Shown in pieces: positions 29,920-59,277 of a stretch of DNA of 64,000 nt. Both the position numbers and the translations under genes were made by a program. The notes below the pieces were generated by a model. It did not search any database. It was not told the origin of the DNA and saw nothing but the letters and a program-made list of their open reading frames with translations. The number at the start of each line of letters is the position of its first letter. Position 1 is the stretch's first letter. The DNA comes from Acidobacteriota bacterium (lineage in GTDB: Bacteria; Acidobacteriota; Terriglobia; Terriglobales; Acidobacteriaceae): contig JAJYBU010000012.1 of NCBI GenBank assembly GCA_021778845.1, positions 1 through 64,000 on the forward strand, given 5' to 3'.

Positions 29920-30000
29920 CCCACCCCACCCCACCGCTATTCCGGCGTCAAACTTAGCTTCGTCACCCAGAGCGCAGCGAAGGATCTCCGCATTGCCCCC

Positions 30001-30452
30001 TGCTTCTGCTCTTGCCCTTGCTTTTGCCCTTGCCCTTGCCCTTGCCTTTGCCTTTGCCTTTGCCTTTGCCTTTGCCTTTGCCTTTGCCTTTGCCTTTGCC
30101 TTTGCCTTTGCCTTTTTGGTTGTCATCCCGTAGGGATCTGCTTCTTCTTTTGCTTTTGCTTTTGCCTTTGCTCTTGCTCTTGCTCTTGCTCTTGCCTTTG
30201 CTCTTGCTCTTGCTCTTGCTCTTGCTCTTGCTCTTGCTCTTGCTCTTGCTCTTGCTCTTGCCTTTGCTGTTGCTGTTGCTGTTGCTGTTTTGGTTGTCAT
30301 CCCGCAGGGATCTGCTTTTGCCTTTGCCTTTGCCTTTGCTTTTGCTTTTGCTTTTGCCCTTGCCCTTGCCCTTGCCTTTGCCTTTGCCCTTGCCCTTGCC
30401 CTTGCCCTTGCTCTTGCTCTTGCCTTTGCCCTTGCCTTTGCCTTTTCTCTCA
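30001..30452. repeat. Hexanucleotide (TTGCYN)n low-complexity tract with two embedded GGTTGTCATCCCGYAGGGATCTGC units
   Basis: Long runs of TTGCCT/TTGCTC/TTGCCC; units near 30118-30141 and 30293-30315. Confidence 0.95.
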
Positions 30453-46093: not shown

Positions 46094-46783
46094 CTACCGC
46101 ACCCCCGCCACCTGATCGCTCACCGGCAGGTGATACATGTGCGCCAGCATCTCTTCATACGTCTTCATCGGCGGCAGGAACACGCTCGCTCTCCGCGCAT
46201 CGAGCCCCTCCGGATCCTCCACCGCTACCATCGCCATCTTCCCGCCGACGACCTTGAACTGCGTTCCATAGCGCTGCAGCTTACCCTCGCCGATCAAGTC
46301 CTTATCCACCACCGTCGCCAGCGCCGACCCGTCGATCTTCCCCTCCCCCGCCAGCCTCTCCAGCCGCGGCAATAACGACACCTGCCACGCATGGTCCGGC
46401 GTATGCGTCAGCATCGCCATCGCGTCGTTCGACGCGTCATACCCCACCATCGCAATCGTCGGCCACCCATGCCGCGCCACAATCTCTTTCAACTCCGTCG
46501 TCAACTGCCGATCCACCTCCGCCGTCTTCGCCGTATACACCGGATGCCCCGTCCCCGCACCGCGAGCCGCCTGGTCGCTCGCATACATCGCGACCAGCTT
46601 CTCGCGCAGCGCCGCATCCGTCCCCGCACCATTGCGCTTGATTAACTCCGCCCGCCGCGCAGCCAGATCATTCCTCCACACCGCATCGGCGCCCGTCCCG
46701 GCAGCAGCCGTCGCCTGCGCCTTCGCTCCACTCGCCATCCCCAAACACAGCACGAGCAGCGCCCACACTCTCAGCATCTTCAT
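46094..46783 (-). CDS. DUF6624-like exported protein
   Basis: Signal peptide; ARHGWPTIAMVGYDASNDAMAMLTHTPDHAWQVSLLPRLERLAGEGKIDGSALATVVDKDLIGEGKLQRYGTQF. Confidence 0.65.
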   Translation of the reverse strand: MKMLRVWALLVLCLGMASGAKAQATAAAGTGADAVWRNDLAARRAELIKRNGAGTDAALREKLVAMYASDQAARGAGTGHPVYTAKTAEVDRQLTTELKEIVARHGWPTIAMVGYDASNDAMAMLTHTPDHAWQVSLLPRLERLAGEGKIDGSALATVVDKDLIGEGKLQRYGTQFKVVGGKMAMVAVEDPEGLDARRASVFLPPMKTYEEMLAHMYHLPVSDQVAGVR

Positions 46784-46929: not shown

Positions 46930-47188
46930 TGTCAAGCCCCCTCAACGGCACAAAACAGCCAGAACCCGCATAAACACTGGCGATTAAATCACTAACAACT
47001 TGGCATAGTTACCCCACCCAACCACGTACAATGGAAGTAGACCCAAAACCACCCTGCCCGGCAGCCGCCGGGCCTTCGTTTTTTAATCACTCACCGCGAG
47101 AATGGCGAAGCCGGACTACCACAAGTCCGGCCTCATCCCCATTCCCCTCAAGACTTTAGGCCCAAAAGTACCCCGGGGGGAGGCCCCC
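46930..47188 (+). promoter_or_regulatory. Composite leader element, copy B (upstream of hscB)
   Basis: TGTCAA 46930, GGCGATT 46979, TGGCATA 47001, TACAAT 47027, AAAAGTACCCCGGGGGGAGG near 47164. Confidence 0.72.
47056..47084 (+). terminator. Intrinsic terminator within leader copy B
   Basis: GCCCGGC-AGCC-GCCGGGC followed by CTTCG and TTTTTT. Confidence 0.7.
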
Positions 47189-47226
47189 ATGCCATCCAAC
47201 CCGCGCAGCGGGTACTCTAACAACAC

Positions 47227-47829
47227 ATGAGCCCCGACTACTTCACCCTCTTCTCCCTCCCGCAGCATCTCCACCTCGACCTCGCAGCCCTCGAGAAGGC
47301 CTTTTACGCCCAATCGCGCAAGCTCCACCCCGACCGCTTCGCCAGTCAGCCCCTCGAAGCCCAGCAGGCCGCGCTCGCCGCCAGTTCGCAGCTCAACGAC
47401 GCCTACCGCACCCTCCGCGACCCCATCCTCCGCACCGAATACCTGCTCTCCCTCCAGGGCATCCAGCTCGAAGAGCAATCCCGCGCCGCCACTGACCTTG
47501 CAAAGGCCAGCGGCATCACCAAAAAGCAAGTAGCTCCCCCCGACCTCCTCGAAGAAGCCTTCGAGCTCAACATGGCCCTCGAAGAGATGAAGATGGGCGG
47601 CGACGACCCTGACGCCCGCGAGCAACTCGAGATCGCGCGCGTTAAATTCACCGCCATGCTCACCGAAGCCCACGAGCAGCTCGAAGCCCTCTGGACCGCG
47701 TGGGACACTGCCGTAGACACCAGCAACGAAGCATCCAAAGACTCCGCCAAACAGGCCATGGTCGCTCTGCTCAACCGCCGCACCTACATCCGCAACCTCG
47801 TCCGGGACGTCATCGCCGCCCTCGAATAG
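47227..47829 (+). CDS. hscB: Fe-S co-chaperone HscB
   Basis: DYFTLFSLPQHLHLDLAALEKAFYAQSRKLHPDRFAS...LNDAYRTLRDPILRTEYLLSLQG. Confidence 0.94.
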   Translation: MSPDYFTLFSLPQHLHLDLAALEKAFYAQSRKLHPDRFASQPLEAQQAALAASSQLNDAYRTLRDPILRTEYLLSLQGIQLEEQSRAATDLAKASGITKKQVAPPDLLEEAFELNMALEEMKMGGDDPDAREQLEIARVKFTAMLTEAHEQLEALWTAWDTAVDTSNEASKDSAKQAMVALLNRRTYIRNLVRDVIAALE

Positions 47830-57180: not shown

Positions 57181-57530
57181 CCCCCCTCCCCTCCCCCCCC
57201 ATACTTTTTCGTCTAAAGTATTCCATTCAGGTGAGTTGCGGGGGGGGTTGGCTGCAAAGTATTCCATTCAGGAGGGTTGCGGGTAAGCTATTCCATTCGT
57301 TGAGGTTAGGTTCTGCGCGGACGGCGGGAGGCTTCGCCTACAGGGCGACGGAGCTGGTGCGGGGGCTTGATGGGGATGGGTCTAGTTAAATTTTACGCGC
57401 GCGGCGGGGGTAACTATGCCAGGTTGGCGAGAGAGAAATCGGCAGTGTTCACAGGGGTTTTGTGCAGATTGGGGCGGCGAGGGGGTTGACACGCGAGTTT
57501 TGGGCTGTTTTCGACGAAATTATTTTTGGG
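57181..57530 (-). promoter_or_regulatory. Composite leader element, copy C (upstream of serA)
   Basis: Minus strand: TGTCAA 57491-57486, GCCGATT from 57443, TGGCATA from 57421, TAAAAT 57395-57390, two CCCGCAAC..CCTGAATGGAATACTTT copies, AAAAAGTATGGGGGGGGAGGGG. Confidence 0.75.
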
Positions 57531-58692: not shown

Positions 58693-59277
58693 TTATCGCA
58701 GTTCAGGCTGACCATATGGTGGATCCGGCCATGGGGGTGCCCCGGGTCCCGCTTCTGGAACCCGGGCCTCGGCTGCACGCTGCCTGCGCAACGCAGTCCA
58801 AGGCGATTCCACTTCAACCCCTCTCAGGCTGCCCGTCGCGTAATGGTCGAAGCTCGACCACAGCCAGTCTTCCGGCTTCTGGACGAAGGAACGCTCGACC
58901 GGATTGCGGTGCATGTAGCGGAGCTTCTCGATGCGCTTCTCTTCTGTGAAGACGTTGAAGTCGTAGTACCTCTGCTCCCAGAATGGGCGTCGGTTTTGTC
59001 GAAGCGCGACGGAGAGCTTGATCGCCTTCATCACGTCGGCGATGGTCTTGTGTTCGGGCTCGCTGATGAGGATGTGGACGCGGTTGGGCATGACTACGTA
59101 GCCGGTGATCCAGAAGCTACATCGGATGCGTGTTCTTTCCAAGGCATCTTCAACCAGAGTGCGAGCTGAGGGTGTTTGCAGGTACGGGCGACGACCGTGG
59201 CAGATGAAGGTGATGAAGTGCAGATTGCCTGTGTGGTGGAGTCGTACGAGTCCGGTCGGTATGGGCAGAGCATACAC
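58693..59277 (-). mobile_element. REP-associated tyrosine transposase (RAYT, Y1_Tnp) with altered HUH motif
   Basis: LHFITFICHGRRPYLQT...ITGYVVMPNRVHILISEP...LRYMHRNPVERSFVQKPEDWLWSSFDHY. Confidence 0.88.
58734..58749 (+). repeat. Inverted repeat/REP arm flanking RAYT (left)
   Basis: GGGGTGCCCCGGGTCC, exact reverse complement of 59294-59309. Confidence 0.85.

Follow-up and report, generated by a model that had tools for sequence, protein, structure and literature searches.

The window, which comprises the whole 64,000-nt stretch of DNA analyzed here, represents one contig (C31) of a 3.77 Mb Granulicella genome. It contains an hscB gene on the forward strand (47227–47829), whose product matches the Pfam family DnaJ above the cut-off (8.7e-7) and HSCB_C below it (0.068). 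Upstream of hscB, an isc-like run of genes is found, consisting of an rrf2-like gene (42337), an iscS-like gene (42920), an iscU-like gene (44393), and a gene encoding an A-type carrier (45014). Because a gene in opposite orientation to hscB (46094–46783) intervenes, hscB is not simply part of an isc operon. The region directly upstream of hscB harbors a composite sequence element, here termed copy B, and the window holds two more copies of it: copy A (30558–30829, forward strand) upstream of an scpB-like gene (30954–32072) and copy C (57188–57491, reverse strand) upstream of a serA-like gene (57042–55321, reverse strand). Both match the profiles R1 and R2, which represent the two modules of the element, and both were recognized by nhmmer. 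Next to copy A, degenerate direct repeats of 12/18 bp form a long array (29948–30511), and arrays of GGCAACGGCAAC-like hexamers also adjoin four copies of the element elsewhere. Some 1.5 kb away from copy C, the reverse strand encodes a transposase domain, Y1_Tnp (IS200/IS605-type), at 58969–59226; the modules do not flank it.

All features of copy B described below are located on the forward strand. The promoter-like module 1 (46930–47040) contains TGTCAAGCCCC at 46930 and, at a fixed spacing, TTGGCATAGTTACCCC (47000–47015), followed by TACAAT and GAAGTAG. TACAAT (47027–47032) is a putative –10 box, in which the T..A.A.T positions are invariant among 52 aligned copies. A conventional σ70-type –35/–10 pair was considered and rejected: TTGGCA (47000–47005) is separated from TACAAT by 21 nt, and a promoter scan of the region found none. 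Downstream of module 1, a terminator-like hairpin (47056–47084), recognized from its sequence and from hairpins at the equivalent place in gene-linked leaders, combines the stem arms GCCCGGC (47056–47062) and GCCGGGC (47067–47073) around an AGCC loop with a CTTCG spacer and six T residues (47079–47084). Assuming that transcription starts just past TACAAT and ends at the T-run, a short RNA of about 45–50 nt would result (47033–47084). Module 2 (47110–47183) opens with a second hairpin, in which the arms GCCGGACT (47110–47117) and AGTCCGGC (47124–47131) enclose ACCACA, and continues with CCTCAAGACTTTAGGCCCAAAAGTACCCCGGGGGGAGG. Its G-run GGGGGGAGG (47175–47183) occupies the Shine-Dalgarno position in gene-linked copies. 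On its 3′ side lies a 13-codon ORF, MPSNPRSGYSNNT (47189–47230), whose TGA overlaps the ATG of hscB; its first codons (ATGCCATC) are similar to the start of a gene from another species that belongs to the family described below, and the ORF is perhaps the remnant of the parental gene's start. Finally, a putative –10 box of hscB itself, TACTCT (47213–47218), is located near the start codon. A sequence check confirmed every feature of copy B that the first-pass annotation had listed. Its term “strong intrinsic terminator” holds for the presence of hairpin and T-run, but the latter is offset from the stem by the 5 nt of CTTCG, and “strong” is therefore an overstatement.

The structure of copy B is not a product of chance. 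A perfect hairpin of at least 8 bp occurred in only 3 of 300 shuffled versions of the region, the 192-nt leader folds with a z-score of –4.2, and matches to both modules are found throughout the genome. A BLAST search of the copy B region against its own genome returned 48 matching places (E up to 10), several of them spanning both halves, and profile searches of the same genome identified 37 copies each of module 1 and module 2. Many copies are also present on the contigs of a cultured Granulicella, strain L46. Copy B itself matches R1 with E=2.2e-22 and R2 with E=4.7e-16 (47113–47183), although both models were built from sets of sequences that included copy B. The earlier description, in which the composite element recurs and has a terminator-like hairpin in its interior, is correct. 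Five copies from this genome, including copy B and the gene-linked C14 copy, form a subfamily together with a gene-linked copy from another species, and this subfamily can be aligned over its full length, from TGTCAAG to GGGGGGAGG. Two of its members carry insertions within the hairpin loop, with outer stem bases that still look complementary; the inserted sequence is another dispersed repeat, approximately CGAAGCCTCTCGCCGTCCGCGCAGGAC. Rfam covariance models gave no match for the element, and we found no description of it, nor of Granulicella transcription start sites, in the literature.

Among 88 copies, the motifs of module 1 are arranged in a strict register. GTCAA and TGGCATA lie 70 nt apart in 70 copies and 48 nt apart in nine, and TGGCATA is followed by TANAAT at a distance of 26 nt in 77 copies and of 26 or 25 nt in 86. 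The sequence between these motifs has diverged in the aligned copies. Such a rigid register suggests binding of a protein to one face of the DNA; an identical pattern could arise through common descent and one deletion of 22 nt. For the hairpin of module 2, no clear covariation was detected outside a conserved core. A strict scan identified terminators in seven of the 88 copies, compared with 0.4 expected, and most copies carry no detectable one. Module 2 also occurs 3′ of genes in the absence of module 1, and four such solo copies are located between 20 and about 300 nt past the stop codon of the preceding gene.

The placement of the copies was evaluated with a simple gene finder made for this analysis. 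The downstream gene is co-oriented with the copy in 30 of 51 judgeable cases and opposite in 21 (p = 0.26; 58 copies examined), whereas the preceding gene shares the orientation of the copy in 38 of 53 (p = 0.002). We therefore rejected the view that the element class is a universal leader of the next gene. In a sample of species, 13 of 30 copies from this genome have a counterpart beside the same neighbor in another species, indicating that the elements are mostly old and do not jump freely. Target duplications or terminal inverted repeats were not noticed in the aligned copies, and the flanks of empty and filled sites are too diverged to be aligned.

At hscB, the element is confined to this lineage. 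The element was not seen in the stretch read upstream of hscB at any of 24 further Granulicella loci, seven of which keep the same divergent neighbor. A TANNCT-like box within 60 nt of the hscB start is found in 18 of 25 Granulicella loci including this one, mostly at –13 to –16. From this comparison, an hscB promoter was probably already in place when this lineage acquired the element between it and the neighboring gene. The first-pass annotation had named an attenuator as one of two readings. In a true attenuator, transcripts from module 1 would be conditionally terminated at 47084 and read-through would set the level of HscB. The element is indeed co-oriented with hscB, its terminator-like hairpin is located between TACAAT and the gene, and the G-run and the short ORF with its overlapping stop codon could couple translation. 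However, the relatives lack the element, a –10-like box lies downstream of it, and other copies face unrelated genes or, in about 40% of cases, genes on the opposite strand. In addition, the distance from TACAAT to the stem is just 23 nt, too short to accommodate an antiterminator: the proposed search for alternative pairing revealed no complementary segment, and the terminator formed in every fold tried that included it. We consider a true attenuator of hscB improbable, and the absence in relatives, the proximal box, and the missing pairing partner also make conserved attenuation of this gene unlikely. The alternative offered by the same annotation, in which a short RNA stands alone and initiation takes place a second time, fits best and is plausible: the –10-like box before hscB is present here and similar in most relatives, and the RNA itself is deduced from the positions of TACAAT and the T-run.

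Several copies of the element are located directly 5′ of genes of a small, unnamed, multi-copy family that occurs in soil acidobacteria. Its products share the motif CRHI-x-T-x-G-x-RCGSPAL..FCYYH, of which the N-terminal pattern C-x-H..RCGSPAL..C-x-x-H is zinc-finger-like, followed by a helical segment (..SIQxAL..IDPxRA..LLLYGLQIAS). The family is present in 15 of 28 Granulicella genomes and in 87 of 150 genomes of the order; a single genome can contain up to 14 matches, some of which run through stop codons. Searches of Pfam and NCBIfam matched the protein to no named family above the cut-off, PHROGs yielded none either, and no transposase family was matched in any of the three collections. 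Its predicted fold, a low-confidence model (pTM 0.38), has no match in the PDB with E≤0.001.

An R1 match is found in 36 of 54 family gene loci, some of which overlap, and in every case it is located upstream of the gene and on its strand. Between module 1 and the family gene, 19 of 41 leaders contain a terminator-like hairpin, compared with 1.6 expected in shuffled sequences. The stems differ in sequence, yet they pair: GACCCGGC with GCCGGGTC, GTCCGGC with GCCGGAC, and GCCTCGGC with GCCGGGGC. This recurrence of hairpins with different stems is the best evidence that the hairpin has been selected in the leaders of family genes. In most gene-linked copies, the G-run of module 2 is located 12–84 nt before the ATG. 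Judged from these comparisons, the attenuator-like architecture is a property of the CRH..RCGSPAL genes, most of which it precedes across the Acidobacteriaceae, and not of hscB. In four gene-linked copies, the leader hairpin and module 2 are separated by a small ORF with the motif PPHELNARRxRK; two of these ORFs were compared with Pfam and gave no convincing match. We also considered that solo copies are the remains of lost genes and rejected this, as no convincing trace of the gene could be seen 3′ of 91 of the 98 copies. As a rule, the leader may thus have spread by itself rather than been left behind by gene loss.

The distribution of the repeat closely follows that of the gene. All 15 Granulicella genomes that carry the gene have module 2, compared with one of 13 without it (Fisher 4e-7). 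The only exception is a genome of 74% completeness in which the gene was not found; the other 12 contain no module 2. Among the 150 genomes of the order, module 2 occurs in 31, of which 29 have the gene (Fisher 3e-6), including all 27 with at least two copies, and module 1 shows a weaker but similar association (45 of 52). The leaders of the family genes add to these counts, but the repeats far exceed the genes in G018 (52 module 2 copies versus 2–3 gene hits) and G007 (34 versus 3). On a tree of HscB, which as a single-gene tree is a weak guide, about five changes of the gene label are needed, at least three of them forced by well-supported branches.

Taken together, we regard it as fairly probable that the dispersed element has its parental form in the 5′ leader of the CRH..RCGSPAL family and that copy B is one of its orphan copies. 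According to this model, module 1 would act as a promoter with a fixed array of upstream sites, and the hairpin 20–35 nt past TACAAT would halt most transcripts, giving rise to a short RNA. Where the parental gene follows, some expression of the family protein would then be permitted by read-through, by the G-rich ribosome site in module 2, or by both, and copies that lack the gene would have been dispersed between genes. At hscB, copy B would represent a lineage-specific case located upstream of the gene's own proximal –10-like box, and hscB is therefore probably transcribed mainly from that box. Read-through or translational coupling via the 13-codon ORF would be a secondary effect on hscB at most. 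Since only this lineage has the element close to hscB, it probably does not serve as an iron-sulphur switch. More tentatively, we propose a gene-dependent dispersed-repeat system with no recognizable transposase, in which the family's leader would be kept or spread only where the gene is present and both would be gained and lost together.

Other explanations would account for parts of these data. The element could be a non-autonomous selfish repeat of the REP or MITE type, spread directly or indirectly by the family product, with promoter and hairpin serving the spread of the repeat. The association with the gene in Granulicella and throughout the order, the repeated changes in gene presence on the HscB tree, the excess of copies over genes, and the occurrence of modules apart from each other are in agreement with this; nevertheless, the absence of a transposase or solved-fold match for the protein, the lack of noticeable target duplications, and the positions common to several species make it somewhat unlikely. 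Rather unlikely, in our view, is a regulon in which the family protein or a different factor would bind module 1 as a promoter, and module 1 would produce dozens of short RNAs or drive adjacent genes. Here, the TGTCAA-TGGCATA spacing, which in spite of a diverged interior is 70 nt or shorter by exactly two helical turns (22 nt), has to be weighed against the downstream orientation, which does not favor such a role, and against common descent as a source of the same spacing. TIRYT genes and TIR repeats have been reported in Acidobacteria, including G. mallensis (PMC3733652), and the genome contains four Y1_Tnp hits, one of which is the domain close to copy C. Spread by such a Y1 (IS200/IS605-type) transposase, as for the TIR family of a TIRYT gene, is very improbable all the same, as no Y1 gene is flanked by modules except for a weak partial module 1 match and the known copy C.

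With our preferred reading, copy B as an orphan of a family leader, attention turns from a single putative switch at hscB to a system that extends over a whole family, in which each genome has dozens of promoter-like elements with identical spacing, linked to a widespread protein family that has no name. Should the protein mobilize or need the repeats, the system would be REPtron-like but based on a protein that is not a transposase. Transcription of the elements, if it occurs, would give the Acidobacteriaceae a large family of short RNAs that annotation has overlooked.

Compared with known systems, the element resembles MITEs in being non-coding, intergenic, multi-copy, and inserted in a lineage-specific manner, but no matching transposase was found and no terminal inverted repeats were noticed in the aligned copies. 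Leader attenuators share with the gene-linked copies the order of promoter, short leader, terminator-like hairpin, and gene, as well as stems that vary and stay paired; in contrast, neither an antiterminator nor a leader peptide would fit into the ~20–35 nt that precede the stem, and the copy at hscB lacks the parental gene. The REP/RAYT (REPtrons) and TIR/TIRYT (PMC3733652) systems differ in that the protein described here has no Y1 (HUH) transposase domain and that the element is larger, promoter-like, and fixed in its spacing, carries no GTAG tag, and is located only upstream of the gene. Like the element, however, these systems consist of intergenic hairpin repeats dispersed in tens of copies and in mosaic arrangement, with one or a few associated genes that carry the repeat in their flank. 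As in both, the presence of the repeat tracks one gene family, but the family is a different one, and the tight link of a scattered repeat with the CRH..RCGSPAL family appears, to our knowledge, to be new.
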